DNA from: a virus
DNA length: 24,549 nucleotides
Virus record (IMG/VR): IMGVR_UViG_3300030333_002837
Location: 1 to 24,549 of that record
Strand: one strand, 5' to 3'
A program made the translations under genes and the position numbers. A model generated the notes under the pieces. The model saw only the letters and a list, made by a program, of their open reading frames with translations. It was not told where the DNA came from and ran no database searches. Positions within the stretch are counted from its first letter, which is position 1. Every line of letters starts with the position of its first letter. Shown piece by piece: positions 3,541 through 22,876 of this stretch.

Positions 3541-3765
3541 TTATCTACAGAATGTTGGTATGTTGTTAGTATTAGTATAAGACTTATACTTCTTGAAACA
3601 GTTCATAGACTCGAATCTATCTTTGTTTCTGTTGTACACTTCATCATGATTGTAAGTTACTTCTTTACCTTTCTTAGTTGTGAAGGTGATGATTGTGTTA
3701 GTTCCGATTAGACTCTTTCTAATTACGAATCTCTTTGTTGTGATGTTGTTTACTTTGTTTGACAT
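3541..3765 (-). CDS. Small basic hypothetical protein, paralogue of the gene at 2732-2983
   Basis: A 74-residue basic protein, MSNKVNNITTKRFVIRKSLI and onward, with the conserved core KRFV.RKSLIG.N.IITF.TKKGKE.TYNHD and the C-terminal KYKSYT.TNNIP shared with the product of 2732-2983. It is the first leftward gene after the divergent region and starts 45 bases downstream of promoter-like copy E. It is slightly shorter than its paralogue and ends TFCR where the other ends MILRGKELV. A small beta domain with a basic surface is likely; the function is unknown. Confidence 0.7.
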   Translation of the reverse strand: MSNKVNNITTKRFVIRKSLIGTNTIITFTTKKGKEVTYNHDEVYNRNKDRFESMNCFKKYKSYTNTNNIPTFCR

Positions 3766-4190: not shown

Positions 4191-5612
4191 GTGATTATTA
4201 GTGTAACTAATAACGTAAAAACTAGTGACAACGATAGTAATATGATGATAACGCCTCTAACAAAATCTTTAAGTCCACTTCTTGCTGAAGAAAAAGAAGA
4301 AGAAGAAAAAGTTGTATATCCTGAGATTTCTACTAAAAAAGTATATACTGGTGGAGTGGGTAAACTTCCTTTAGTTTTAGAGATGCCACAGAAGATAGAA
4401 TTTGATGAGGAGGAAAATACTACATTTGTAACGCCTAAAAACGCTAATCAAGAGCAGATAGATAAAGAAATGGAATCTTTTAATAAGAACCAAGAGATCC
4501 AAATGGAAGTAGCATACGCACAGAGAGGTGATTTAAACGCTAATAACGAGCTAATAAAAAACTACGAAAAGAACCATAACGAGAAATATAGTGAACAGAT
4601 AGCTGATGGAAGAGAAATGACATTTGGAGACAAAGTGGATATGACTCTATCGGTGGGAGGTTTAGCCCCAGTTTGGGGGATATTTTCCGATGCCGCGAAT
4701 CTAGTACAAAATCTAGGACAAGCTGCTGCAGCTGGGATAACAGGTGACTTTGATGAAATGAAGCATGATTTAGAAAATGCTGGTTGGGCCACGGCGGGAA
4801 TAATACCATTTGGAATTGGACAGTTTTTTACCGGTATAAAGCATGCTAAAAACTCTAAGAATATTGTTAATACAGTAAAAAACACTAGCGGCACTAAAAA
4901 TATAAACTCTGAATCACTACTTGATTTCATAAGAACAGCGGATGATGCTGCTATTCAGAACTCTAAATTACTAACTAATGAACAAAAAGTATCAATACTA
5001 AATACTAGAGTAGATGCAAGGATAGCTAAAGCTGCTAATGCTGGGGACGTGGTCAATGGTGTAGACTATTATAAAGGAGCTACACATTATGGGGAAGTGA
5101 ATAATATAGAGAAATATAATACAGTAAAAAATCAAGTTGTTGCTGGTCAAACTAGTTACGGGAGAACAGTAGATGCAAATATGTCTAATATAAACTTTAC
5201 AGCAGCTACAGATCTAAAACCAGACATGGTAAATAAAATAGGTACACAAAGTGGTAGAAATATATATGAGGTTACTTTTCCAGATGGTAGTACACAAAGA
5301 TTTTGGAGATCTTCAGGAAAGGGAGGTAAAACAATAAAAATGCCAGATGGTACAAATGTAAGTTCGGAAGGATTTTTCGGTACACTTCCTGGTCACATGG
5401 ATATAAAACTACCTTATGATCAAGCGGTTCAAATGGCTATTAACTCAGGGGCAAAAATGGGAACAAAGCAATTTGATGATTATGTAAGACACTTTCAAGG
5501 TACTAACGGTTGGTTTGTTAAATCTGGTGATTGGCAAGGATATGGATCTACAACTTTTCAACAAACTGGTGCTGTGTTAAAAAATTGGTTCGATAGTGGC
5601 CTATTAAAATAA
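4191..5612 (+). CDS. Large protein with pre-toxin-like hydrophobic centre; possible virion or effector protein
   Basis: A 473-residue protein starting at GTG (4191) behind an A-rich leader; ATGs at 4242 and 4245 are alternatives. Residues 1-145 are acidic and low-complexity. Residues about 145-220 hold a Gly- and Ala-rich hydrophobic segment with P.WG.F.DAANL...G and a second stretch GWATAGIIPFGIGQFFTG, a style seen before the toxin domain of polymorphic toxins (pre-toxin regions) and in some membrane-penetrating virion proteins. The C-terminal 120 residues are a separate aromatic-rich domain (GHMDIKLPYDQA, HFQGTNGWFVKSGDW). No catalytic motif was recognised. Its stop overlaps the next start as TAATG, so the two are coupled. 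It could equally be an internal virion (ejection) protein. Confidence 0.75.
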   Translation: MIISVTNNVKTSDNDSNMMITPLTKSLSPLLAEEKEEEEKVVYPEISTKKVYTGGVGKLPLVLEMPQKIEFDEEENTTFVTPKNANQEQIDKEMESFNKNQEIQMEVAYAQRGDLNANNELIKNYEKNHNEKYSEQIADGREMTFGDKVDMTLSVGGLAPVWGIFSDAANLVQNLGQAAAAGITGDFDEMKHDLENAGWATAGIIPFGIGQFFTGIKHAKNSKNIVNTVKNTSGTKNINSESLLDFIRTADDAAIQNSKLLTNEQKVSILNTRVDARIAKAANAGDVVNGVDYYKGATHYGEVNNIEKYNTVKNQVVAGQTSYGRTVDANMSNINFTAATDLKPDMVNKIGTQSGRNIYEVTFPDGSTQRFWRSSGKGGKTIKMPDGTNVSSEGFFGTLPGHMDIKLPYDQAVQMAINSGAKMGTKQFDDYVRHFQGTNGWFVKSGDWQGYGSTTFQQTGAVLKNWFDSGLLK

Positions 5613-5857
5613 TGGCTGAAACTACAACGGGACCAGATGGTGGTAAACAAAAGCTATCTGCGCAAGCAAGAAGGGATAAACAAGCAAGAGATAAAGCTTA
5701 CGCGATGACAGATGATAGAAAGAAAAAGAAAGCGCAAAACCAGAGAATAGGACAAAGAAGTGACTCTGATCTTCATCATACTAAGTCTGGCACAGTAAGA
5801 AGAACATCGATAGCTTATAATAGAGCAACTCACACTAGAGGTGAGGTTAATACATAA
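5612..5857 (+). CDS. Small, highly basic protein with an HH...NR...H motif
   Basis: An 81-residue protein, very rich in Lys and Arg (RDKQARDKAYAMTDDRKKKK), predicted disordered in the first half. The C-terminal third reads SDLHHTKSGTVRRTSIAYNR then ATHTRGEVNT, an HH, a Gly, then N-R and a final H-T-R-G. This faintly recalls the His-rich core of HNH/endonuclease VII-type nucleases, but the fold cannot be claimed from so few residues. It is translationally coupled to the large upstream protein (TAATG), so the two probably act together, either as effector and partner or as virion proteins. Confidence 0.62.
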   Translation: MAETTTGPDGGKQKLSAQARRDKQARDKAYAMTDDRKKKKAQNQRIGQRSDSDLHHTKSGTVRRTSIAYNRATHTRGEVNT

Positions 5858-5870
5858 AAAACAAAAAGAT

Positions 5871-6197
5871 ATGAGTAAACCATTCAAAATGCTAGGACAC
5901 GAACTTCCTGGACCCAATCAGAGGACCTCTCTTAAAATGTTAGGTCAAGAGATGACGAGAGGCACTGGTTTAAGAGCAGATATGGAAAGTAATATACATT
6001 CGCTTATAGGCGGTGGAATGTTAGATGCGGCTGTAAGAGGGCAATATGTAGAAGATGATACTGGGATGAAAAGAAATCAACCAGCTGTAGAAGATGATAC
6101 TGTGGAAACGTTCTCAGGAGGCGTTGACGGAGGGCACGGACCAACAAGTAAGAAAAAAGTAGACGTAGAAGTAACTGTTAACGGACAAAAAGTATAA
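5871..6197 (+). CDS. Small protein with the shared SKPFKM N-terminal motif (108 aa)
   Basis: The open frame extends back to 5841, but the ATG at 5871 is preferred. It follows an A-rich leader (AAAAAACAAAAAGATATG) and gives MSKPFKMLGHELPG, whose first seven residues match the products of 6203 and 7166. A second, similar unit follows at about residues 21-29 (SLKMLGQEM), so the motif may be duplicated inside the protein. The rest is acidic and low-complexity, ending VDVEVTVNGQKV. No enzyme motif is present. It belongs to a run of five genes with related N-termini and is probably a small virion-associated or scaffold-like protein (inference). Confidence 0.66.
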   Translation: MSKPFKMLGHELPGPNQRTSLKMLGQEMTRGTGLRADMESNIHSLIGGGMLDAAVRGQYVEDDTGMKRNQPAVEDDTVETFSGGVDGGHGPTSKKKVDVEVTVNGQKV

Positions 6198-6202
6198 AGA
6201 AT

Positions 6203-6523
6203 ATGAGTAAACCATTCAAAATGAGGGGAACACCCTTTAAAAGAAATTTCGGTATAGGAGAGACAGAATCTCCTGATAAAACATCACCAGCTAGTCTAAA
6301 TATCAATTGGGGTGACGTAGCTGGTAAAGCAGTGGAAGGATTTGGAAATTGGGCTCAGAAAACATATGGAGGAGTTAATCCTACTAACACTGAAGAAAAA
6401 GATGAAGAGGGAAATCCAGTTGAAAAAGAATCTATAGGTTCTAAACTAGTAAAAAGTATAATAGGTAGTTTTAAGAAAGATGAATCTACTGAAGATGTAA
6501 CAGACGAAGAAAAAGAAGGATAA
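6203..6523 (+). CDS. Small tag-bearing protein (106 aa)
   Basis: A 106-residue protein whose first 19 residues, MSKPFKMRGTPFKRNFGIG, are identical to those of the product of 7166. The middle (about residues 34-55) has a Gly-rich amphipathic helix (GKAVEGFGNWAQKTYGG) and residues 70-106 are a charged tail (FKKDESTEDVTDEEKEG). It starts six bases after the upstream stop and ends one base before the next ATG. The basic-aromatic tag followed by a disordered acidic body would fit a protein directed into the capsid or to a membrane, but this is inference. Confidence 0.7.
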   Translation: MSKPFKMRGTPFKRNFGIGETESPDKTSPASLNINWGDVAGKAVEGFGNWAQKTYGGVNPTNTEEKDEEGNPVEKESIGSKLVKSIIGSFKKDESTEDVTDEEKEG

Positions 6524-6524
6524 T

Positions 6525-7136
6525 ATGGAAATAATGTCACCGTTAAGAGCAGGAGGAGGAACATCTCCATTTCAAAAGAGAACAGCCACTAGAGGTGGTA
6601 AGCATGGTATAAAGGCTACATCAACAGCTAGACGTAGAGGTGGATTCTCTAAAACCGGTGCTAAAGGTTCTAATGTACATGGTTACAATGTGGCTACAAG
6701 ATTTTCTCCATTTGCAGATCCTAGTCTCCAAAATCCATTAGCTGGTAAATCAGGTGGTGGAGGAGGTGGAGGAAAAGGTGGAGGTGGAGGTGGAGGCGAC
6801 ACTTATAACTACACTATTGGTGATATTGACATGGGAGATATAACTACCGGAAACCAAAGCAATATAAACGAACAAGTAAATAATCAAAACGCTGGAAGTT
6901 TACCTACATACAAAGAAGCTTGGAGAAAAATGTCTGTTGAAGAAAAAGAAAAACACGGTGGAGATTACAATAAATTTGTTGAAGCAGCTGAAAAATGGTG
7001 GGCTTCTGACGCTGGTAAAAAGTATAAAGCAAGTTTAAAACAAAAAAATAAGCAAAAACAAAAAAATATCAATCAAAAAAATATACAAAAAAATATAGGT
7101 CACACACTTAAAATCGGCCCAGGATTTTCTATATAA
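6525..7136 (+). CDS. Glycine-rich protein with a variant of the N-terminal motif (203 aa)
   Basis: A 203-residue protein starting MEIMSPLRAGGGTSPFQKRT; the inner ATG at 6534 would give MSPLRAGGGTSPFQK, closer to the motif P[FL][KR]..G..PF[KQ] of the neighbours. The basic N-terminal 60 residues are followed by a pure Gly linker (about residues 76-91, GGGGGGGKGGGGGGG), a Thr/Asn/Gly-rich stretch (about 93-115), a helical segment with YKEAW.KMS..EK...GGDY.KF and a Lys/Gln/Asn-rich tail (KQKNKQKQKNINQKN). This is a modular, structural type of protein with no catalytic motif. Its position in the tag cluster suggests it is virion-associated. Confidence 0.68.
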   Translation: MEIMSPLRAGGGTSPFQKRTATRGGKHGIKATSTARRRGGFSKTGAKGSNVHGYNVATRFSPFADPSLQNPLAGKSGGGGGGGKGGGGGGGDTYNYTIGDIDMGDITTGNQSNINEQVNNQNAGSLPTYKEAWRKMSVEEKEKHGGDYNKFVEAAEKWWASDAGKKYKASLKQKNKQKQKNINQKNIQKNIGHTLKIGPGFSI

Positions 7137-7165
7137 AAAGAATAAATAATTAAAAACAAAAAACT

Positions 7166-7867
7166 ATGAGTAAACCGTTTAAAATGAGAGGGACACCATT
7201 CAAAAGGAATTTTGGAATTGGTAATGAACAACCTTCTCCAGCACAGTGGCATAAAGAGGGTCACGAAAAAGGATTCTTTCAAAGTATACACGGTGCAATA
7301 ACCGGTACTGAAGGAAAGAAATTCGGAGAAACAAAATTTGGACAAGCACTTCAAACTGTAGGTTCTAATATACAAGAAGGTGAACCTTTGTTAGAAGGAG
7401 TTTTACCTGGTTCTGAAAACAAAGATGTTGACGTAAATACAGAAGAAAATGTTAACACTAAAAACACTGAAAACGCTGAAAACACAACAACGTTAAGTGA
7501 AGAGCAAATGTCGGCTGGAAATCTTCATGACTTCTATAAAGCTGGCGGTGGTAAATTACCATCTTTAGCAGACAGAAGAACTATATATGAGCAAATGGGT
7601 GGAGAAGGAAATTATAGAGGTACTGCCGAGCAAAACACTCAGCTACTTCAACACTTAAAAGGAAACTCACCATTAACTACACACACAACAGGTGTTCCTC
7701 ATAAAACTGATGAAGAAAGATTGAAAGAAATTGAACAAATGCAAGATTGGTGGAGCAAAAAAGAAGAACGCGCTAAAGCAACAAAAACAAGAGATGATAA
7801 AATAAAAACAAAGAAAGAACAAGAAGAAAAAAACAAACCTTTCTGGGAAAAAAAGACAATCTGGTAA
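7166..7867 (+). CDS. Tag-bearing protein with a charged coiled-coil tail (233 aa)
   Basis: Residues 1-19 equal those of the product of 6203, yet the DNA differs at 11 of 19 codons, all synonymous. Residues 25-55 are basic and Gly-rich, 85-115 are an Asn/Glu/Thr-rich linker, and 130-175 form a conserved-looking module (GGGKLPSLADRRTIYEQMGG, then NYRGTAEQNTQLLQHLKG) that I have seen as a short C-terminal module in Bacteroidota phage proteins but cannot name. Residues 185-233 are a Lys/Glu coiled coil ending KPFWEKKTIW. The leader is A-rich (AATTAAAAACAAAAAACTATG). The role is unknown; a virion or ejected protein is plausible. Confidence 0.7.
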   Translation: MSKPFKMRGTPFKRNFGIGNEQPSPAQWHKEGHEKGFFQSIHGAITGTEGKKFGETKFGQALQTVGSNIQEGEPLLEGVLPGSENKDVDVNTEENVNTKNTENAENTTTLSEEQMSAGNLHDFYKAGGGKLPSLADRRTIYEQMGGEGNYRGTAEQNTQLLQHLKGNSPLTTHTTGVPHKTDEERLKEIEQMQDWWSKKEERAKATKTRDDKIKTKKEQEEKNKPFWEKKTIW

Positions 7868-7927
7868 AAAACTTACCAAAAAATAATAAAACCAAATTAA
7901 TTAAACAAATATAAAAACATAAAAATT

Positions 7928-8506
7928 ATGGCAGGAATAGGAGATTACGACTCAAACAAGCCTTTTAGATTAAAATCACAAGGAATGCCTTTTAAAGAAA
8001 TAGGTTCGTCTAGCGTTAACGATAGTCCATTACCTCTTCATGAAAAAGGACATGGGTTAGGTAAAATACTAAAAAATACTTTTAGTAACGTTAAACAAAA
8101 AATTGTAACAGGTATTACTAAATCTAGGGTTAAAAAATCTGAGAAAAAAGATAAAGATCATGGTGGTATAGTTCCAGGAACTAGAAAAACATTAGATACT
8201 TATATTGAAACTAAAGGTTCTAATGCTGGAAACTTAAAACCAAAAGGTAAAAATACACCAATAGATATAAAACATAGTAAAGGGTTTGAATTTACTAGAG
8301 GTGGTGGAGATCCTTATATTTATAAAACAAAAGATGATGGCCAAACATTCCAATACAAGAAAATTGGAGAGACAGGTTGGTCAGACGTTAAAGGTGGACA
8401 TGATAAGATAATGGAATCTTATGTAAAATCTATAGAGAAACCTTTAAAAAACGTAAAAAAGGATAAAGAAATAAAACATTCAGAATATAACTTTATCGAA
8501 TATTAA
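7928..8506 (+). CDS. Basic protein with a variant of the PFK motif (192 aa)
   Basis: A 192-residue Lys-rich protein. Residues 9-26 (SNKPFRLKSQGMPFKEIG) align with the SKPFKM.RG.PFK tag of the upstream genes, here preceded by MAGIGDYD. The remainder is basic, with KSEKKDKDHGGIVPGTRKT in the middle and a beta-rich stretch FTRGGGDPYIYKTKDDGQTF, then KKIGETGW, near residues 120-155. No membrane segment or catalytic motif is visible. It is the last member of the tag-gene run, and a small hairpin (8516-8532) follows it. Confidence 0.68.
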   Translation: MAGIGDYDSNKPFRLKSQGMPFKEIGSSSVNDSPLPLHEKGHGLGKILKNTFSNVKQKIVTGITKSRVKKSEKKDKDHGGIVPGTRKTLDTYIETKGSNAGNLKPKGKNTPIDIKHSKGFEFTRGGGDPYIYKTKDDGQTFQYKKIGETGWSDVKGGHDKIMESYVKSIEKPLKNVKKDKEIKHSEYNFIEY

Positions 8507-8879: not shown

Positions 8880-10445
8880 ATGGAATATAATCAGCCTAGC
8901 GAGATTGTCAAAGATTTAAACTTTGGTGATGACGCTAAACAAAGAATTATAAGAGGCGTGGATAAACTTGCTCAAGCAGTTAAGTCCACTCTAGGGGCTT
9001 CTGGTAAATGTGTTATTTACGAAGACGCCCGAGGAAAACCGGTAATCACAAAAGACGGAGTAACTGTAGCCGAATCAGTTGTCTTGTTTGACCCGGTTGA
9101 AAATATGGGTGCTACTTTAATTAAAGAAGCAGCTAGAAATACAGTGAAAGAAGCAGGTGACGGTACCACAACGGCTACCGTTCTTGCTGAAGCGCTAATA
9201 AAAGAGGTAAATAACTGTGAAAAAGATGTAACTATTAGAGATATCAAAGAAGGAATTTACTCTGGACTTGAAAAAGTAAATAATTACTTAGATTCTATTA
9301 AAATAGACGTAAAAGGAGACATGTTAAGTAGTGTTTCTTCTATAAGTTGCAACAACGATACTAAACTCGGTGAGATAATAGCTGAGGCTTACACTAAAGT
9401 TGGTAAGGATGGTGTTGTTTTAATGGAGGAATCTGAAATAGAAAAGACTTACGTAGAGGTTGTTGATGGGGTTCAAGTTGATTGTGGATTGACTTCTCCT
9501 CATTTTGTTACAGATAACGAAAAACAACGTGTTATTTTAGATAATCCACTTGTTTTAATAGTAGCTTCAGAAATTCCAAACGTTAGAAAAATACAAAACG
9601 TGTTAGAGTTTGTGATTAAAAACAATAGATCGTTATTAATTGTAGCACCAGTGTCTCAACAAGTTAAAAGCGCACTTTTAATGAACAAAGTTAAGGGCAC
9701 AATTAAAGTAAACATTATAGATTTACCAGGTTTTGGCCCAACAAAGCAAGATACAATTAAAGATTTAGCAATTTTGACTGGTGCAACAGTAATAAATGAA
9801 GAATTAGGTGATGATTTAGATGGAATATCACTAGATGTGCTTGGAGAGGCTGAAAAAGCCGTTACAGATGATAAAAACACTATATTAACGCTTAATGAAA
9901 CAATTCCAAGTGTTAAAGAGCGTGTAAAAGAGGTTAAAAAGCTACATAAAAACGAAAAAAATCCGTTTTTAAAGAAAAAAATAGAACAAAGAATAGCAAT
10001 GTTATCAGGTTCTGTTGGAATTATAAGAGTTGGAGCTAATTCTAAGGTAGAATTAAAAGAAAAGAAAGATAGAGTTGAAGACGCGATATATGCCACAAAA
10101 GCAGCGTTAAAAGAAGGTATTGTACCAGGAGGAGGAATAGCTTTGTTAAATGCCGCTCAAAGTATAGAAAAAGAAAACGTTGGAGAGAGAATATTGTTAA
10201 AGTCTATAAAGGCACCATTCGAAACTATACTAGACAATGCTGGATTCACACAAGTAGCACCGCGCCCAGAGAAAGGGTTAGGTATAGATGTTGTTACAGG
10301 TAAAAGCGTGGATATGATTGAAAAAGGAATTATAGACCCAGTACTTGTTACTAAAACAGCATTAAAAAACGCGGTAAGTGTAGTATCAACTATAATATCG
10401 GCAAATTGTGTAATATCTAATATGAGAACAAATGAAAGCAGTTAA
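8880..10445 (+). CDS. groEL: Phage-encoded 60 kDa chaperonin GroEL
   Basis: This is a type I chaperonin that assembles into double heptameric rings and folds proteins with ATP in the cytoplasm. The equatorial domain has ITKDGVTVAESV (56-67) and the nucleotide loop AGDGTTTATVL (92-102, matching E. coli Asp87). Asp401 in RVEDAIYATKAALKEG matches catalytic Asp398, and VPGGGIAL follows. The apical substrate site reads GLTSPHF (203-209) where E. coli has GYLSPYF, so two aromatic positions are changed. At 521 residues it is shorter than the 548 of E. coli, mostly because the C-terminal GGM tail is missing. It overlaps groES by 14 bases. It probably folds phage structural proteins, perhaps the capsid (inference). 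Certain as a family member; activity is untested. Confidence 0.97.
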   Translation: MEYNQPSEIVKDLNFGDDAKQRIIRGVDKLAQAVKSTLGASGKCVIYEDARGKPVITKDGVTVAESVVLFDPVENMGATLIKEAARNTVKEAGDGTTTATVLAEALIKEVNNCEKDVTIRDIKEGIYSGLEKVNNYLDSIKIDVKGDMLSSVSSISCNNDTKLGEIIAEAYTKVGKDGVVLMEESEIEKTYVEVVDGVQVDCGLTSPHFVTDNEKQRVILDNPLVLIVASEIPNVRKIQNVLEFVIKNNRSLLIVAPVSQQVKSALLMNKVKGTIKVNIIDLPGFGPTKQDTIKDLAILTGATVINEELGDDLDGISLDVLGEAEKAVTDDKNTILTLNETIPSVKERVKEVKKLHKNEKNPFLKKKIEQRIAMLSGSVGIIRVGANSKVELKEKKDRVEDAIYATKAALKEGIVPGGGIALLNAAQSIEKENVGERILLKSIKAPFETILDNAGFTQVAPRPEKGLGIDVVTGKSVDMIEKGIIDPVLVTKTALKNAVSVVSTIISANCVISNMRTNESS

Positions 10446-10689
10446 CAATTACCTTATAATAGATATGATCAAAAACGAGCCTAAAAAAGTAGGTGGATTG
10501 ATTTTAACAGACGAAATCAACGAAGATAATAGATATTTAAAAGCAAAAGTTGTGTCTGTTGGTGATCTTGTGCAAGGAATAAAAGAAAATGATGTTGTTT
10601 ATTACGATAAGCACGCAGGCCACGGTATACAACATAAAGATAAATTTTACGGCGTTATTAAACAACAAGACGTTGTATTAATAGATTAA
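10432..10689 (+). CDS. groES: Co-chaperonin GroES (Cpn10)
   Basis: An 85-residue Cpn10, the lid of the chaperonin ring. It shows the family pattern NNYLIIDMIKNEPKKVGGLI with the mobile-loop GGLIL (E. coli GGIVL) that docks into GroEL, then KAKVVSVGDL, the ND.VYYDK strand and a C-terminal VIKQQDVVLID. It is shorter than the 97 residues of E. coli GroES, partly in the roof loop. Its ATG lies inside the end of groEL, so translation is coupled and the two are made together. The gene order, EL before ES, is reversed relative to nearly all bacterial groESL operons. Distant phage homologues of Cpn10 such as T4 gp31 serve capsid folding. Confidence 0.93.
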   Translation: MKAVNNYLIIDMIKNEPKKVGGLILTDEINEDNRYLKAKVVSVGDLVQGIKENDVVYYDKHAGHGIQHKDKFYGVIKQQDVVLID

Positions 10690-12559: not shown

Positions 12560-12955
12560 ATGGCGTTTAAATTTAAGAAAACTACATCGGCATTAGCGAG
12601 CAAAGGTCACTTGAATAGAAACTTGTCTTTTAAAAATGAAGAACAAGAATCTATACCAGGTACACCTATACTGCGTAAGGATTTAGAAGGTGGTATTTTA
12701 GGAGAAGCTAATAAAGATGGGTCTATATTTTTAAGCAAAGATTTAGAACCAGGTGGGGAAAAAGAAAAACAAGTACTAGCTCATGAAATTGTACACATGA
12801 CAGACATGAAAACAGGTAAGTTAGCTTACGACGATAACTCTGTTACTTGGAAAGGTATAAAATACGATAGAGAAGCTGGACATATAAAGTACAATGGCGA
12901 GTGGTATGTAGAGGGCGCCAAACAACTTCCTTGGGAGGTTATGCCTTGGGAATAA
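12560..12955 (+). CDS. HExxH zinc metallopeptidase-like protein (131 aa)
   Basis: A 131-residue protein whose residues 72-83 read VLAHEIVHMTDM: the HExxH zinc signature with H75, E76 and H79, and D82 three residues on as a possible further ligand. Acidic candidates for another ligand lie in the C-terminal WEVMPWE. The N-terminal 40 residues are basic (MAFKFKKTTSALASKG) and loosely resemble the tags of the upstream genes. Comparable short HExxH proteins occur in marine phage structural regions. It could be a virion-associated peptidase, a maturation protease or part of lysis; the adjacent holin-like gene makes lysis possible. Confidence 0.7.
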   Translation: MAFKFKKTTSALASKGHLNRNLSFKNEEQESIPGTPILRKDLEGGILGEANKDGSIFLSKDLEPGGEKEKQVLAHEIVHMTDMKTGKLAYDDNSVTWKGIKYDREAGHIKYNGEWYVEGAKQLPWEVMPWE

Positions 12956-15259: not shown

Positions 15260-15479
15260 AGAGTTAATTAAAGTTGCAAAAGAACCTATTGTAGATTCAG
15301 ATGATGATATATCAGCAGATAGATTGAAAAATGCCGCGGCCACTAAAAAACTAGCTATATTTGACGCATTCGAAATACTCACAAGAATCCAAGAAGAAGA
15401 AAACCTGCTTGAGGGCAAAGCATCTGAAGAGAGAAAGGAAACGACGTTTAAAGGATTCGCAGAAGGTAGATCTAAGTAA
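15204..15479 (+). CDS. Small helical acidic protein upstream of terminase; candidate small terminase subunit
   Basis: A 91-residue, mostly helical protein (NIIQAGQKAVEELIKVAKEP, then DRLKNAAATKKLAIFDAFEI and LTRIQEEENLLEGK) with an acidic linker DSDDDIS. It overlaps the previous gene by 56 bases and the terminase by one base (TAATG). Small terminase subunits usually sit immediately upstream of the large one and are helical, which is the reason for the suggestion; no HTH DNA-binding motif can be seen, and it is shorter than most small subunits. It may instead be an unrelated conserved phage protein. Confidence 0.66.
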   Translation: MNTKETKKNIIQAGQKAVEELIKVAKEPIVDSDDDISADRLKNAAATKKLAIFDAFEILTRIQEEENLLEGKASEERKETTFKGFAEGRSK

Positions 15480-17695
15480 TGTACAAGCAAAGTTTAGTTA
15501 AAACTGTAGAACCTATTAAAAGAACCACGGTTACTAGAATGAATCGAGGTAAAAAATGGAAATACGGTTACAATAAAGAACATGATTTAATTGTGTTATC
15601 TAAAAATGGTGTAATAGGAGAGATTATAGAGATACAAAATTTAGTTATAGCTTTACCAAAATCACCTAAAGAGATATATAAACATCCAAGCAATAAATGG
15701 GTTAAACAAGAATATCCTAAAGAACTACAAAGGATTAAAAATATATTTGACTGGAGAAACTATCCAGACGAACAAAAAGAACAGTGGTACGATTATATAG
15801 ACGAAGAATTTAAACGTAGAGAAGAGGGTTTCTGGTTTATGAATAATAATAAACCAACGTATATAACTGGAACACACTACATGTACTTACAATGGAGTAA
15901 GATTGACGTTGGAGCTCCTGATTATAGAGAAGCAAATAGATTGTTTTTTATATTTTGGGAGGCTTGTAAGGCAGATAAAAGATGCTATGGTATGTGTTAT
16001 CTTAAAAATAGACGTTCTGGATTTTCTTTTATGTCATCTGCAGAAACTGTTAATCTAGCTACTATATCAAGCGACGCTAGATATGGAATACTCTCTAAAA
16101 CAGGTGCAGATGCTAAAAAGATGTTTACTGATAAAGTTGTTCCAATTAGTATAAATTATCCATTTTTCTTTAAACCTATTCAAGATGGTATGGATAGGCC
16201 AAAAACAGAACTTGCTTATAGAGTACCAGCTAGTAAGTTTACTAGAAAGAAAATAACATCTAATGAGAAATTAGAAGATATAGTGGGATTAGATACAACT
16301 ATCGATTGGAAAAATACTGGGGATAATAGTTATGATGGGGAAAAGTTGAATCTATTAGTGCATGATGAAAGTGGTAAATGGGAAAGACCTGATAATATAT
16401 TAAACAACTGGAGGGTTACAAAAACTTGTTTACGATTAGGTAGTAGAATAGTTGGTAAATGTATGATGGGTAGTACTTCAAACGCTTTAGATAAAGGAGG
16501 AGATAATTTTAAAAAACTATATTATGATTCAGATGTTACGGAGCGTAACCGTAATGGACAAACAAGGTCTGGTTTATATTCTCTTTTTATCCCAATGGAG
16601 TGGAACTACGAGGGATTTATTGATGAATACGGACAACCAGTTTTTAATAACCCAGATCATGATGTACTCGGACCAGACGGTGAATTAATAGATTATGGAA
16701 TAATAGAGCATTGGGAAAACGAAGCTGAGGGTTTAAAACAAGATCAAGACGCTTTAAATGAGTTTTACAGACAATTCCCAAGAACAGAAGAACATGCGTT
16801 TAGAGATGAGGCTTTAAATAGTATATTTAATTTAGTTAAAATATACGAGCAAATAGATTATAATGATGGAGTTAGAACTGACTCTACATTTTCAGTTGGA
16901 AATTTTCAATGGGTGAACGGAATAAAAGATACTCAAGTAATGTTTTATCCAGACCCAAAAGGTAGATTTAAAATAAGTTGGGTTCCACCTTCCAACTTAC
17001 AAAATAGAATAGTAATTAAAAATGGAATTAAATATCCAGCTAATGAACATATAGGTGCTTTTGGTTGTGATAGTTATGATATATCAGGAACGGTAGATGG
17101 AAGAGGATCAAATGGAGCACTGCATGGTTTGACCAAGTTTTCAATGGAAGATGCTCCTCCAAATCACTTTTTTTTAGAATATATAGCTAGGCCACAAACA
17201 GCTGAGATATTTTTTGAAGACGTATTAATGGCTTTAGTTTTTTATAGCATGCCATTACTATGTGAGAATAACAAACCTAGATTACTGTATTATCTTAGAA
17301 GAAGAGGGTATAGGGGTTATAGTATGAATAGACCTGATAAGGTTTGGAACAAGTTATCTGTAGCTGAAAAAGAAATAGGTGGAATACCAAACTCCAGCGA
17401 AGATATAAAACAAGCCCACGCAGCAGCCATTGAAATGTATATACAACAATATGTTGGTCATTTAGGTGATGGTAATTATGGTAATATATATTTTAACAAA
17501 ACGTTAAATGATTGGGCAAGATTTGATATCACCAAAAGAACTAAGTTTGATGCGACGATAAGTTCTGGATTAGCAATTATGGCTTGTAATAGACATCTTT
17601 ATAGGCCCAATGCTAAAATTGAAAAACCAAAATTAAACATTCACATATCCAAATATTCAAACAAAGGTGATATGTCTAAAATAATTAAAAATTAA
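15479..17695 (+). CDS. terL: Terminase large subunit (packaging ATPase and nuclease)
   Basis: A 738-residue motor protein that pumps phage DNA through the portal and cuts it. The ATPase domain shows a Walker A-like YLKNRRSGFSF (174-184), which replaces the usual GK[ST] as in crAss-type terminases, Walker B LNLLVHDE (290-297) with the catalytic Glu297, and a coupling motif MMGSTSN (329-335). The nuclease domain begins near GAFGCDSYD (527-534), where Asp531 is the first metal ligand. The FPRTEEHAFRD segment (433-443) is typical between the domains. The length is normal for this branch. It starts on the stop of the previous gene and ends one base before the portal ATG. Confidence 0.93.
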   Translation: MYKQSLVKTVEPIKRTTVTRMNRGKKWKYGYNKEHDLIVLSKNGVIGEIIEIQNLVIALPKSPKEIYKHPSNKWVKQEYPKELQRIKNIFDWRNYPDEQKEQWYDYIDEEFKRREEGFWFMNNNKPTYITGTHYMYLQWSKIDVGAPDYREANRLFFIFWEACKADKRCYGMCYLKNRRSGFSFMSSAETVNLATISSDARYGILSKTGADAKKMFTDKVVPISINYPFFFKPIQDGMDRPKTELAYRVPASKFTRKKITSNEKLEDIVGLDTTIDWKNTGDNSYDGEKLNLLVHDESGKWERPDNILNNWRVTKTCLRLGSRIVGKCMMGSTSNALDKGGDNFKKLYYDSDVTERNRNGQTRSGLYSLFIPMEWNYEGFIDEYGQPVFNNPDHDVLGPDGELIDYGIIEHWENEAEGLKQDQDALNEFYRQFPRTEEHAFRDEALNSIFNLVKIYEQIDYNDGVRTDSTFSVGNFQWVNGIKDTQVMFYPDPKGRFKISWVPPSNLQNRIVIKNGIKYPANEHIGAFGCDSYDISGTVDGRGSNGALHGLTKFSMEDAPPNHFFLEYIARPQTAEIFFEDVLMALVFYSMPLLCENNKPRLLYYLRRRGYRGYSMNRPDKVWNKLSVAEKEIGGIPNSSEDIKQAHAAAIEMYIQQYVGHLGDGNYGNIYFNKTLNDWARFDITKRTKFDATISSGLAIMACNRHLYRPNAKIEKPKLNIHISKYSNKGDMSKIIKN

Positions 17696-17696
17696 T

Positions 17697-20096
17697 ATGA
17701 AGGAGTTTCCAAGTCAAGTAGTAAGCGATATAGAAAAGTTAAGTTTCGAATATGGACTTAAAGTAGCTCAAGCTATTGAATCTGAATGGTTCGATAAAGA
17801 CAAAAATAGAAATAGATATATACACAATAGAAGTAGCTTTCATAACCTCCGTTTGTACGCTAGAGGAGAACAATCAATTCAAAAATATAAAGATGAATTA
17901 TCTATTAATGGTGATTTGTCGTATCTTAATCTAGATTGGAAACCTGTTCCAATTATACCAAAGTTTGTAGATATAGTTGTGAATGGAATGGCTAATAGAA
18001 CTTATGATATAAAAGCGTTTTCACAAGACCCATTTGGTGTAGATAGAAGAACACAATACATGAACATGGTGATGGAAGACATGAGAAGCAAAGATCTTAA
18101 ACACTATGTAAGAGAAAACTTTGGAATGGATCTTTTTAATAATGACCCACAATTATTACCAAGTTCTCAAGAAGAGTTAGATTTACACATGCAACTCAAT
18201 TACAAACAAGCGATCGAGATAGCTCAAGAACAAGCTATAAACACTTTATTGGAGAGCAATAAATACGAGTTAACAAAGAAAAGATTTTATTATGATCTTA
18301 CAGTCTTAGGTATAGGTGCTGTAAAAACAAGTTTTAATACTTCTGAAGGTATAACTATAGATTATGTAGACCCTGCTAATTTAGTTTATTCGTATACAGA
18401 TTCTCCTTATTTTGAAGATTGTTATTATGTTGGTGAAATAAAATCTATTCCAGTAAACGAATTAGCGAAAGAATTTCCACATTTAGATTCTGAAACTTTA
18501 GAAGATATAATTAAAAATAACAACCAAAGTTTAGGAAGGTACAACTCAGAAGTACATAGATCTAAAAACTCAGATAATAATAAAGTTCAAATTCTTTATT
18601 TTGATTATAAAACCTATATGAACGAGGTTTACAAAATCAAGACTACCGCAACAGGCGCTGATAAAGCAATACCAAAGGACGATTCTTTTAACCCTCCACA
18701 TCAAACGGATAATTTCAACAAAGAGCATAGGTCTATAGAATGTTTATATGAAGGCGCTTTAATATTAGGTACAGAAAGATTAATAAAGTGGGAAATGTCT
18801 AGAAACATGATGCGAAGTAAAAGTAATTTAACAAAGGTTAAAATGAATTACAATATTTGCGCACCTAGAATGTATGAGGGAAGAATAGAGTCATTAGTTA
18901 GTAGAATAACAGGTTTTGCTGATATGATTCAATTAACGCATTTAAAGTTACAGCAGGTTATGGCTAGAATAACACCTGATGGAGTTTATTTAGATGCTGA
19001 TGGACTTGCTGAAATTGACCTAGGTAACGGAACTAATTACAACCCACAAGAAGCTTTAAACATGTTCTTCCAGACAGGTTCTGTTATAGGTAGATCATTG
19101 ACTAGTGAGGGAGATATGAATCCTGGTAAAGTACCTATTCAAGAAATACAATCTGGAAGTGGAGGACAAAAATTACAATCATTAATAGGTAATTATAATT
19201 ATTATTTACAAATGATTAGAGACACGACTGGATTAAATGAGGCTAGAGACGCGGCACAGCCAGATCCTAAAGCTTTGGTTGGTGTACAAAAAATGGCCGC
19301 AGCTAATTCTAATACAGCCACTAGACATATATTACAAGGTGGACTGTTTTTAACATCAGAAATATGTTACTCTCTTTCTTTAAGATTATCAGATATTTTA
19401 GAATATTCTCCTATGAAAGATATGTTTGTAGAATCTATAGGAGCTCATAGCACGGCTACTTTAGATGAATTATCAGAACTACACTTACATGATTTTGGTA
19501 TATTTATAGAGCTTTCTCCAGACGAAGAAGAAAAAGCTATGTTAGAAAACAATATACAAGTAGCTTTAGCTCAACAAAATATTGAATTAGAAGATGCTAT
19601 TGATCTTAGAGAGATTAAAAATATAAAATTAGCTAATCAATTATTAAAGATTAGAAGAAAAAAGAAAATAGCTAGAGATCAAGAGATACAACAGCAAAAC
19701 ATTAGAGCTCAATCACAAGCTAATATTGAAGCGCAACAAGCCGCGGCTGAATCAGAAATGCAAAAACAACAGATGTTAACACAAACATCTTTAGCTATAG
19801 AGCAACAGAAAAATCAACTTGAAATAGAAAAATTATATCAAGAAGCTGAGATTAAGAAACAATTAATGCAATTAGAATTCCAATACAATATGCAATTAAA
19901 AGGTATGGAAAACCAAACTATGTCAGCAAAGGATAAACAAAAAGAAGATCGTAAAGATAAAAGAACTAAAATACAAGCTACACAACAAAGTCAACTTATA
20001 GACCAAAGAAACAACAACAAACCACCTAAAAACTTTGAATCAACAGGTAATGATATATTAGGTGGGTTTGACATGGCGCAATTTGGTCCTAGGTAA
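17697..20096 (+). CDS. Portal protein
   Basis: A 799-residue protein that forms the dodecameric ring at the capsid vertex through which DNA enters and leaves. It follows the terminase by one base. The middle carries RDTTGLNEARDAAQPDPKAL (about 508-527) followed by VGVQKMAAANSNTATRHIL, a hallmark of portals in crAss-like and related phages. The C-terminal 130 residues are a Gln/Glu/Lys-rich coiled coil (IEAQQAAAESEMQKQQML region, then EIKKQLMQLEFQYNMQL), consistent with the helical barrel. The length is at the upper end for portals. No frameshift or stop is present. Confidence 0.92.
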   Translation: MKEFPSQVVSDIEKLSFEYGLKVAQAIESEWFDKDKNRNRYIHNRSSFHNLRLYARGEQSIQKYKDELSINGDLSYLNLDWKPVPIIPKFVDIVVNGMANRTYDIKAFSQDPFGVDRRTQYMNMVMEDMRSKDLKHYVRENFGMDLFNNDPQLLPSSQEELDLHMQLNYKQAIEIAQEQAINTLLESNKYELTKKRFYYDLTVLGIGAVKTSFNTSEGITIDYVDPANLVYSYTDSPYFEDCYYVGEIKSIPVNELAKEFPHLDSETLEDIIKNNNQSLGRYNSEVHRSKNSDNNKVQILYFDYKTYMNEVYKIKTTATGADKAIPKDDSFNPPHQTDNFNKEHRSIECLYEGALILGTERLIKWEMSRNMMRSKSNLTKVKMNYNICAPRMYEGRIESLVSRITGFADMIQLTHLKLQQVMARITPDGVYLDADGLAEIDLGNGTNYNPQEALNMFFQTGSVIGRSLTSEGDMNPGKVPIQEIQSGSGGQKLQSLIGNYNYYLQMIRDTTGLNEARDAAQPDPKALVGVQKMAAANSNTATRHILQGGLFLTSEICYSLSLRLSDILEYSPMKDMFVESIGAHSTATLDELSELHLHDFGIFIELSPDEEEKAMLENNIQVALAQQNIELEDAIDLREIKNIKLANQLLKIRRKKKIARDQEIQQQNIRAQSQANIEAQQAAAESEMQKQQMLTQTSLAIEQQKNQLEIEKLYQEAEIKKQLMQLEFQYNMQLKGMENQTMSAKDKQKEDRKDKRTKIQATQQSQLIDQRNNNKPPKNFESTGNDILGGFDMAQFGPR

Positions 20097-20129: not shown

Positions 20130-21359
20130 ATGGCAAAAAAGAAAAAAGAAACAGTAGTTGAAGAAACTACTAAAGAAAAAGTAATGGAGGAAACTCCCGT
20201 GGAGAAAAAAGAAAAAGAAACTCCTAAAATTGATTTAGAAAAATTTGACAGTAAAGACGATGAAACCGTTGTTAAAGTTGATCTATCTAAACCAGTAGAA
20301 GAAAAAAATGAAAAAGAGGAAGTTACAAAGGTTAATCTAAAAAAAGACAACTCTGAAAATAAAGAAGATAGTGTTATAGAAGAAGTTGTTGAAGAAAATA
20401 AAGAAGAAGAGCCTAAAGAAGACACGCCTATTATAGAAGAAGTTACAGAAGAAAATACCGCAGAAAAACATGCTGAGAAAGTTGCTGAGGTTGTAGAGGA
20501 AGAAGTAAATAAATCTATAGAGGAAAATGTAGCTTTACCTGATAGTATTCAAAAGTTGTTAACTTTTATGGAAGAGACAGGAGGTAATTTATACGATTAT
20601 GTTAAATTAAATCAAGATTTTTCTGAAATGGATAATGACACTTTACTTAGAGAGTACTACAAGCAAACAAAACCTCATTTATCAGAAGACGAAGTTGAGT
20701 TTGTAATGGAAGATAAGTTCTCTTTTGACGAAGAATCAGACGATGAAAGAGATGTAAAACGAAAGAAATTAGCTTTGAAGGAGCAAGTTGCTCAAGCAAG
20801 GCACCACTTGGAAAGTGTAAAATCCAAATACTATGAAGATATCAAAAGCGGGTTAAGGCTTCCTGAAGAAGCTCAAAAAGCTTTAGATTTTTTCAACAGA
20901 TATAACGAGGAATCAAAAAAGAGTAATGAGGTGTTAGAAGACCAAGCAAAAGTTTTTAAAACAAAAACCGACAATGTTTTTAACGATAAATTCAAAGGTT
21001 TTGAATATAATGTTGGAGATAAAAGATTTAGGTTTAATATAAAAAACACTAGCGAGGTTAGAGAAACTCAAGGTGACATTAATAACTTTATAGGAAAGTT
21101 TCTTAATAAAGATATGAAAATGGAAGACGCTGAGGGTTATCACAAGTCTCTTTATACTGCTATGAATGCAGATGCTATTGCTAATCATTTTTATGAACAA
21201 GGAAAAGCTGATGCTATCAAAGAAAGTATTGCTAAGTCTAAAAACATCGATATGACTCCTAGACAATCATACGGAGAAAACGTAAACACTAGTGGTTTAA
21301 AAGTTAGATCTCTTGACGATGGTCCTGATTTTAAGTTTCAAATTAAAAATAAAAAATAA
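20130..21359 (+). CDS. Capsid scaffolding-like protein (409 aa)
   Basis: A 409-residue protein between portal and capsid, the usual place for a scaffold. Residues 1-160 are a low-complexity Glu/Lys/Val region (MAKKKKETVVEETTKEKVME, EEPKEDTPIIEEVTEEN); the rest is helical and charged with LALKEQVAQARHHLESVKSK in the middle and a C-terminal end LDDGPDFKFQIKNKK. No protease triad can be seen. The first codons and the preceding leader closely match those of the gene at 22951. Scaffold is the best fit by position and composition; sequence identity to known scaffolds is not claimed. Confidence 0.8.
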   Translation: MAKKKKETVVEETTKEKVMEETPVEKKEKETPKIDLEKFDSKDDETVVKVDLSKPVEEKNEKEEVTKVNLKKDNSENKEDSVIEEVVEENKEEEPKEDTPIIEEVTEENTAEKHAEKVAEVVEEEVNKSIEENVALPDSIQKLLTFMEETGGNLYDYVKLNQDFSEMDNDTLLREYYKQTKPHLSEDEVEFVMEDKFSFDEESDDERDVKRKKLALKEQVAQARHHLESVKSKYYEDIKSGLRLPEEAQKALDFFNRYNEESKKSNEVLEDQAKVFKTKTDNVFNDKFKGFEYNVGDKRFRFNIKNTSEVRETQGDINNFIGKFLNKDMKMEDAEGYHKSLYTAMNADAIANHFYEQGKADAIKESIAKSKNIDMTPRQSYGENVNTSGLKVRSLDDGPDFKFQIKNKK

Positions 21360-21379: not shown

Positions 21380-22876
21380 ATGGCAATTACTGCAGGAGGT
21401 AGTTTAAATAGCACGCCAGCTCCACAAAAGCAAACGTTAGCTACAAACTACTTAGATTTTACGGGAACAAGTGATACTACTTGGGCTCAACAATACCTGC
21501 CTGATTTGATGGAAAAAGAAGCTGAAGTATTTGGTCCTAGGACTATTTCTGGTTTCCTTTCTCAAGTTGGAGCAGAAGAAGCGATGATGGCTGACCAAGT
21601 AGTTTGGTCTGAACAAGGTCGTTTACACTTACATTATACTGGTGAGATCACTGATGGTGATGCTGGTACAATTGCAGGTGGACAAATTACTATTGGTAAT
21701 GATATCGATGGTAAATCAGCTGGTGCTAATCACGGTATTAGAAAAAATGATACTGTTATTGTTGCTAGTTCTGAAGGTACAGTTAAAGCATTAGTTACAT
21801 TAGTAAACAATGCTGTTATTGATGTAGCTCCTTACGGGGTTGTTGACTTAAATGATGTGTTTACAGATAGCCAAGGTGCTAATTCGGTTAACGTATTAGT
21901 TTATGGTTCTGAATACGGAAAAGGAGACAACTACGATGGAAGCTCTACAAGAGGTGCTAATGAACCTAAATTCCAAACTTTCTCTAACAAACCAATCATA
22001 ATGAAAGATTACTACGAAGTATCAGGTTCTGATACAGCTAGAATTGGTTGGGTAGAAGTTTCTGGAGAAATGGGTCAATCAGGTTACTTATGGTACTTAA
22101 AAGCTGAAGCTGACACTAGAGCTAGATTTACTGATTACTTAGAGATGTCTATGTTAGAAAGTGTTAAAGGTGGTGTTGCTGGTGGTTACACTGGCGGTGT
22201 TGCTGATTTAACAGATTCTCACTTTGATCATTTAGGTGCTACAGATACAACTGGTACTCAAGGTTTATTTAATGCTATTGAAGAAAGAGGTAATGTTACT
22301 ACTGGTGTTACTGGTGTTAACGCTGCTACTGATTTAGCTGAATTCGATGCTATCTTAGCTGAGTTTGATAAGCAAGGTGCTATTGAAGAAAACATGATGT
22401 TTGTAAATAGAGATACTTCTCTAGCTATGGATGATATGTTAGCTTCTATGAATTCTTATGGTGCTGGTGGTACTTCTTACGGAGTATTCCAAAACTCTGA
22501 AGATATGGCACTTAATTTAGGTTTCTCTGGATTCCGTAGAGGTTCTTATGATTTCTATAAATCAGATATGAGATACTTAAATGATAAAGCTACTAGAGGT
22601 GGTATCAACACTGCTTACTCTGCTGGTGCTATTAGAGGAATGATTATTCCTGCTGGTACATCTACAGTTTACGATCAAGCATTAGGAAAGAATCTTAAAC
22701 GTCCTTTCTTACACGTTAGATATAGAGCTTCACAAATGGATGACAGAAGAATGAAATCATGGGTTACTGGTTCGGTTGGTGCTGCTACATCTGCACTTGA
22801 CGCGATGCAGATACACATGTTATCTGAAAGATGTCTAGTTACACAAGGTGCTAATAACTTCATGATAATGAAGTAA
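21380..22876 (+). CDS. Major capsid protein (HK97-fold type)
   Basis: A 498-residue Gly/Ala/Thr/Ser-rich protein. It starts MAITAGGSLNSTPAPQKQTL and has a helical N-arm (WAQQYLPDLMEKEAEVFGPR), a long central domain and ends with DAMQIHMLSERCLVTQGANN and FMIMK. Position after the scaffold, size, composition and strong bias to GCT/GGT codons (a sign of high expression) all point to the shell protein. Its arrangement resembles crAss-like major capsid proteins of about 490-510 residues. The leader AATTTAAAAATTAAAAATTATG has no Shine-Dalgarno sequence but fits Bacteroidota initiation. A rho-independent terminator follows. Confidence 0.88.
   Translation: MAITAGGSLNSTPAPQKQTLATNYLDFTGTSDTTWAQQYLPDLMEKEAEVFGPRTISGFLSQVGAEEAMMADQVVWSEQGRLHLHYTGEITDGDAGTIAGGQITIGNDIDGKSAGANHGIRKNDTVIVASSEGTVKALVTLVNNAVIDVAPYGVVDLNDVFTDSQGANSVNVLVYGSEYGKGDNYDGSSTRGANEPKFQTFSNKPIIMKDYYEVSGSDTARIGWVEVSGEMGQSGYLWYLKAEADTRARFTDYLEMSMLESVKGGVAGGYTGGVADLTDSHFDHLGATDTTGTQGLFNAIEERGNVTTGVTGVNAATDLAEFDAILAEFDKQGAIEENMMFVNRDTSLAMDDMLASMNSYGAGGTSYGVFQNSEDMALNLGFSGFRRGSYDFYKSDMRYLNDKATRGGINTAYSAGAIRGMIIPAGTSTVYDQALGKNLKRPFLHVRYRASQMDDRRMKSWVTGSVGAATSALDAMQIHMLSERCLVTQGANNFMIMK

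Follow-up and report, generated by a model that had tools for sequence, protein, structure and literature searches.

Small proteins of one marine phage lineage, with otherwise unrelated bodies, begin with the same bipartite peptide, in which FK[ML][KR]G is followed nearby by S[PA]xK and which is strictly N-terminal. We are inclined, on balance, to regard this peptide as a virion-packaging (capsid-targeting) tag, and we infer packaging, a receptor, and injection from its distribution and genomic setting. The analysis started from a window of 24,549 nt, comprising the whole stretch of the IMG/VR record IMGVR_UViG_3300030333_002837 that was analysed, and its relevant features are listed in Table 1.

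Tagged genes of the window and selection on the peptide

A first-pass annotation had described an N-terminal peptide common to five consecutive small proteins of the window, with a perfectly matching pair at its centre. The pair was borne out: the products of 6203-6523 and 7166-7867 have identical first 19 residues (MSKPFKMRGTPFKRNFGIG), and the 11 codons that differ do so synonymously without exception. Nei-Gojobori counting gave 10.7 synonymous and 46.3 non-synonymous sites for the two tags, and under neutrality 11 synonymous changes out of 11 would be expected with a probability of ~1e-8. Because all changes are synonymous and the synonymous sites are saturated, recent copying of the tag is excluded and strong selection on the peptide is indicated. 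The two bodies were correctly described as unrelated, since BLASTP found no significant alignment between them (best E 4.5). The proposal that purifying selection acts on a short N-terminal peptide in front of unrelated bodies is thus strongly supported by the codons, the 127 body clusters, and the N-terminal bias reported below. The accompanying proposal of an old duplication is one possibility only. Cassette shuffling occurs too, since in another contig (L003:4405-4713), at the matching place before groEL, a different N-terminus that lacks the FKMRG tag precedes a copy (88% identical) of the last 66 residues of 7166.

Variants of the peptide had also been claimed for three further proteins. 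Those on 5871 and 7928 are clear, and their sub-types recur in other contigs (FKMKGHELPGPNQ in G005; KPFKLRSGNxPxFKMMGSSP-like starts in G004, G005, and G013). In contrast, the protein at 6525-7136 (MEIMSPLRAGGGTSPFQKR) is without the Phe-Lys core, which is otherwise nearly invariant, and shows SP[LF] elements only, making it the weakest of the five. A sixth tagged gene, overlooked in the annotation, encodes a metallopeptidase (12560-12955, MAFKFKKT...).

Table 1 Features of the window, with positions counted from its first nucleotide
Feature	Position	Strand	Remarks
Untagged small basic protein adjoining the tagged array	5612..5857	+	phrog_6437, family of phi38:1 gp080
Variant tag MSKPFKMLG (HELPGPNQ sub-type)	5871..5897	+	On protein 5871-6197 (MSKPFKMLGHELPGPNQ)
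Full tag MSKPFKMRGTPFKRNFGIG	6203..6259	+	Start of 106-aa protein 6203-6523
SPLRAGGGTSPFQKR, weakest member, without FK core	6537..6581	+	In protein 6525-7136
Tag identical to that of 6203	7166..7222	+	Start of 233-aa protein 7166-7867; codons differ from 6203 at 11/19
Variant tag NKPFRLKSQGMPFKEIG (KLRSGN..FKMMG sub-type)	7955..8005	+	On protein 7928-8506
Phage GroEL and GroES genes	8880..10689	+	Border the tagged array
Tagged (MAFKFK) HExxH metallopeptidase	12560..12955	+	64 relatives aligned
Terminase large subunit and portal	15479..20096	+	Define lineage and late structural block
Putative scaffold, acidic, between portal and coat, ends DFKFQIKNKK	20130..21359	+	Tail resembles tag core
Major coat protein candidate	21380..22876	+	phrog_13704 virion structural protein

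Two further regions lie ahead of the array. Positions 2732-2983 and 3541-3765 on the minus strand encode paralogous small proteins (FV[VI]RKSLIG.N.IITF...YKSYT.TNNIP) of a minus-strand operon, copies of which are present in L003 and L106. The plus-strand operon opens with a 473-aa protein (4191-5612) that has no family match, is absent at that place in L003, and has a C-terminal part that looks like a separate domain.

Spread and anatomy of the tag

IMG/VR was scanned with degenerate tag patterns, which matched 6, 12, and at least 120 of its stretches. Among the matches listed, 134 viral pieces encoded 265 distinct tagged proteins; the proteins (median 121 aa, basic) formed 127 single-linkage body clusters, 99 of them singletons. 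FKMKG occurs 183 times in these pieces, 177 times within the first 15 residues, compared with 0.29 expected from composition. The tagged relatives are all uncultured and mostly fragments, and gene starts were set mechanically. An artefact, be it low-complexity coincidence, bait bias, or DNA-level gene conversion, could draw on the fact that most loci were fetched by the tag pattern, which biases raw numbers upward, but it is refuted by the counts and we assign it practically no probability. Across 2,252 distinct proteins of related contigs, N-terminal FK[ML][KR] in forms other than the bait MAFKMKG, and hence outside the selection of the main scan, was seen 95 times versus 0.45 expected from its rate in the interior of these proteins (5 in 422,181 residues). 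FKMKG stands on 102 independent bodies and the best unrelated N-terminal 5-mer on 9, and the saturated synonymous sites of the 6203/7166 pair speak against an artefact as well. The tag is not a chance pattern, and the motif is conserved in relatives, a point on which the first-pass annotation had staked its proposal. One contig (L106) carries about a dozen tagged or tag-like genes. MAFKMKG was also sought in prokaryote genomes, where 27 matches in 257 Gb were mostly not at an ORF start or lay on bacterial-looking ORFs and look like chance. Searches of cultured phages by tblastn with the tag, 7166, 5612, and the 12560 peptidase gave no useful match.

The tag is confined to one marine phage lineage (132 of the 134 pieces). 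In 122 pieces there are homologues of structural genes of the window or of genes next to them, with terminase identity of at least 67.8%, and for 10 of the other 12 the full record contains a terminase that is 77-90% identical. The terminase and portal of the window are 64% and 54% identical, respectively, to those of the uncultured podovirus MW202828 (Manatee Spring). Portal identity falls from 47% to 27% across Maribacter phage Panino, Elemovirus, Cellulophaga phages phi38:1 (Pervagoviridae; 36%) and phi19:3 (Pachyviridae), and Tenacibaculum phage Gundel. For the terminase, identity to Elemovirus is 47%. The order terminase, portal, putative scaffold, coat, and ring protein is common to the window and these relatives, and the homology of the first four genes in the same order supports kinship with the Pervagoviridae, Pachyviridae, and Elemovirus relatives. 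The tag is missing from the regions read of the nearest outgroup, MW202828, and from those of Elemovirus, Panino, phi38:1, phi19:3, and Gundel, although the Elemovirus scaffold homologue starts MFKMKLEG, without the rest of the tag. Within the lineage, the 156 tagged genes available for strand comparison are without exception on the structural-gene strand. The arrays are mostly upstream of groEL (held by 64 of the 134 pieces) or between groEL and the terminase gene, and further tagged genes lie at the tail/lysis end (G010 44487, G005 51609).

The core was aligned in 122 proteins with unrelated bodies, one per body cluster and with the peptidase left out. It usually follows M-A and consists of F (122/122, by selection), K (121), M or L (109 and 13), K or R (99 and 15), and G (100). 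Behind it comes a variable stretch in which aromatic residues, Pro, and Gly are abundant, with sub-types that include GxPFxRNFGIG, GFSGF, GWSPF, GPSLY, GHxLPGxNQ, and KLRSGNxxFKMMG. S[PA]xK sits within 35 residues after the core, and SPx[KRQ] was seen 52 times in the first 40 residues compared with 4.6 +/- 2.1 in shuffles. Tagged proteins are basic, with a median net charge of +0.08 per residue (0.0 for the remaining proteins in the 45-350 aa range), and some bodies consist of long K/S/P/M repeats (G004 15256, L108 816). Full-length tagged proteins contained almost no known domains from Pfam and PHROGs, save DUF6321 and a few weak matches.

The largest tagged family with a clear fold is the 12560 peptidase, present in 88 of the 134 pieces. 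Among 64 aligned members, H75, E76, H79, and E126 are invariant and M1, F3, and K4 are at least 90% conserved, and positions 5 to ~24 vary freely. Residues 1-31 are predicted to be disordered by AlphaFold2, with pLDDT below 50 for nearly all of them and 70-91 for most of the body. With 82 distinct relatives the peptidase is very common in the lineage, where it is close to the holin gene and gene 12118.

Virion links and the packaging reading

Three links, each partial and indirect, connect the tagged genes to the particle. The untagged 5612 protein belongs to phrog_6437, as does phi38:1 gp080, which a profile of the window family finds at E 7e-9; the annotation of gp080 as a structural protein is by similarity and not from its own MS. 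Tagged proteins of L103, G008, and L089 contain a GYxxxSPD..ITMxGV domain, which also makes up the N-terminal domain of phi4:1 gp040; MS/MS experiments showed gp040 to be a structural protein, and the domain in common with L103 is body and not tag. Finally, a 294-aa protein of G010 that matches phrog_6121 (virion structural protein, E 1e-10) starts ...PPFKARGGVSPMK and has a tag-like N-terminal extension containing KPPFKARGGVSPMK; three of eight phrog_6121-type proteins compared start without any extension, and several relatives have extensions with SP[FLMN]. For this protein the PHROG match was relied on, as a profile search for homology to phi38:1 gp099 was not significant (E 0.12). A likeness between a tagged L160 protein and phi38:1 gp069 (structural) was dropped, being weak, lysine-rich, and outside the tag.

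The first-pass annotation had offered several destinations for the peptide, and entry into the particle is the best-fitting of these, given the late gene block and the three links. The results speak neither for nor against the portal as a destination. A packaging tag fits best because it explains a fixed tag on free bodies, the N-terminal position, the disorder, the late setting, the many tagged genes per genome, and the restriction to one lineage. Under this model, the flexible basic-aromatic tag would be bound during head assembly by a head component, for which the putative scaffold, the coat, and the portal are candidates, and small unrelated cargo proteins would be co-packaged and delivered with the DNA into the next host. 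A fixed receptor would keep the tag fixed, and bodies that are dispensable, host-specific effectors could turn over quickly.

A more specific version concerns the scaffold. In 28 contigs, 20 of the 28 putative scaffolds have a C-terminal tail like DFKFKIKNKK ([FL]KxKIK), which is likely to be coat-binding. FKMKG..S[PA]xK might mimic this tail and so act as a cargo-loading code, in which any gene gaining the 20-residue start would have its product loaded, giving an exchangeable injected arsenal of up to about ten proteins per genome and more than 100 kinds across the lineage. We regard this version as possible but unlikely. The resemblance is kept as a hypothesis only, because F[KR][MLFI][KR] outside N-terminal tags does not exceed its expectation from composition (54 occurrences against 63).

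In its logic, the tag would best be compared with the T4 capsid targeting sequence of IPI, IPII, and IPIII, also a short N-terminal peptide on small basic proteins with unrelated bodies that vary among related phages. T4 IPI is an anti-restriction protein, which suggests, by analogy, what the variable tagged bodies might do. The N-termini of IPII and IPIII are identical over 11 residues, the first 10 residues of IPIII are enough for entry into the head, fusions bring foreign proteins in, and CTS-like starts are found on further basic proteins in relatives of T4 (PMC9026906; that source likewise describes the IPII and IPIII propeptides as identical). The differences are nevertheless clear. By inspection, FKMKG..S[PA]xK does not resemble the T4 sequence MKTYQEFIAEA; the main internal proteins of T4 number three, whereas one contig here can have ten or so tagged genes (L106); and the T4 lineage is distinct from that of the tag, whose members are relatives of phi38:1. 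T4 also uses a gp21-type protease with an L/I-x-E site. No such prohead protease was recognised among the window proteins searched, and no conserved cleavage-site column was seen in the tags, in which [LI]xE occurs in residues 5-30 of 24 of 127 (mean 11.5, maximum 23 in 200 shuffles). The tag is placed outside the T4 family, because its sequence is unrelated and neither a gp21-type protease nor its site was recognised. The remark in the annotation that no named signal has this form holds for the sequence, as our literature search found no mention of the tag or of 'FKMKG', but not for the kind of signal, which the T4 sequence exemplifies. To our knowledge, the head proteins of PhiKZ, 201phi2-1, and SPN3US do not share such a fixed N-terminal core. 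Many different proteins occur in these heads, as would be the case here, but with cleaved propeptides and Glu-specific prohead protease sites (PMC9026906). In PhicrAss001, a Bacteroidota podovirus, capsid and tail likewise contain a large protein cargo (gp45-gp50), made up of few, large proteins unlike the small tagged ones, and the main text of its description contains neither 'signal' nor 'protease' (PMC10172136).

Should the peptide be a packaging signal, sequence alone would be enough to list the proteins that this abundant, uncultured marine phage lineage injects, most of them without a recognisable domain, and to pick from them candidates for anti-defence or take-over functions. Beside the T4 sequence, the tag would then be a second head-targeting signal, of independent origin, and could serve as an address label for loading phage particles with foreign proteins. 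Otherwise, the strong selection on a peptide of 20 residues in front of more than 100 unrelated proteins still calls for an explanation.

Alternative roles of the peptide

The tag, together with repeated SPxK/KMKK, might instead bind the AT-rich minor groove and organise or protect the genome, its presence in virions being a by-product. Histone H1 has minor-groove motifs of the SPKK type, which are S-P-x-K tetrads in basic proteins. The basic charge of the tagged proteins, the enrichment of S[PA]xK near the tag, the repeat-rich bodies, and the AT content of the window (67%) are consistent with such a role. We nevertheless consider it improbable, as it leaves FKMKG and the strict N-terminal position unexplained when repeats anywhere would do. 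The tetrad here is concentrated behind a fixed N-terminal core, unlike in histone H1; beyond the first 40 residues SPx[KRQ] shows no clear excess (13 seen, 7.0 +/- 2.7 expected from shuffles), and the tag is present on a folded metallopeptidase too. That peptidase could itself be the partner, with the tag as its propeptide, substrate, or docking site. It is widespread and itself tagged, and the solved structures nearest to it are those of archaeal minigluzincins, which include proteins crystallised as zymogens. Its profile match to minigluzincin MJ1213 (4qhf) is weak (E 0.003), however, as are its best fold matches (abylysin, E 0.27; selecase, E 0.29), and no cleavage site is visible, so that we judge this role very unlikely; it could also coexist with packaging, by analogy with gp21 in T4.

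Targeting to the host envelope or peptidoglycan, for lysis or entry, and not to the capsid, would agree with the position of the tagged peptidase beside the holin, with a weak match of the 7166 body to part of the L-Ala-D-Glu peptidase family (E 2e-5), and with tagged genes that adjoin the M15 endolysin. It is highly improbable in our view, since the tags contain no hydrophobic segment or lipobox on inspection of their sequences, most tagged bodies are without a known domain, and the neighbouring M15 peptidase and holin are untagged. The membrane destination suggested in the annotation is likewise unlikely for a short, basic peptide without a hydrophobic stretch. A second set of small basic proteins occurs at G005:45797-46159 and G010:43347-44945, near the M15 endolysin in both, and in L092, L103, and L143; some have DUF6321-like C-terminal domains, which are found also in pelagiphages and cyanophages. 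Recruitment of the tagged proteins to phage-encoded GroEL, or to an intracellular assembly site and not the particle, could account for the arrays that border groEL/groES, yet it has little probability: the outgroups Elemovirus, Panino, and MW202828 encode GroEL without the tag, and tagged genes occur at the tail/lysis end too. Typical GroEL substrates, moreover, are not short, disordered, mostly polar peptides like the tag. Methylated phage GroEL is among the proteins detected in free phi38:1 (KC821614) virions (PMC13288928), and the phage chaperonin may accordingly travel with particles.
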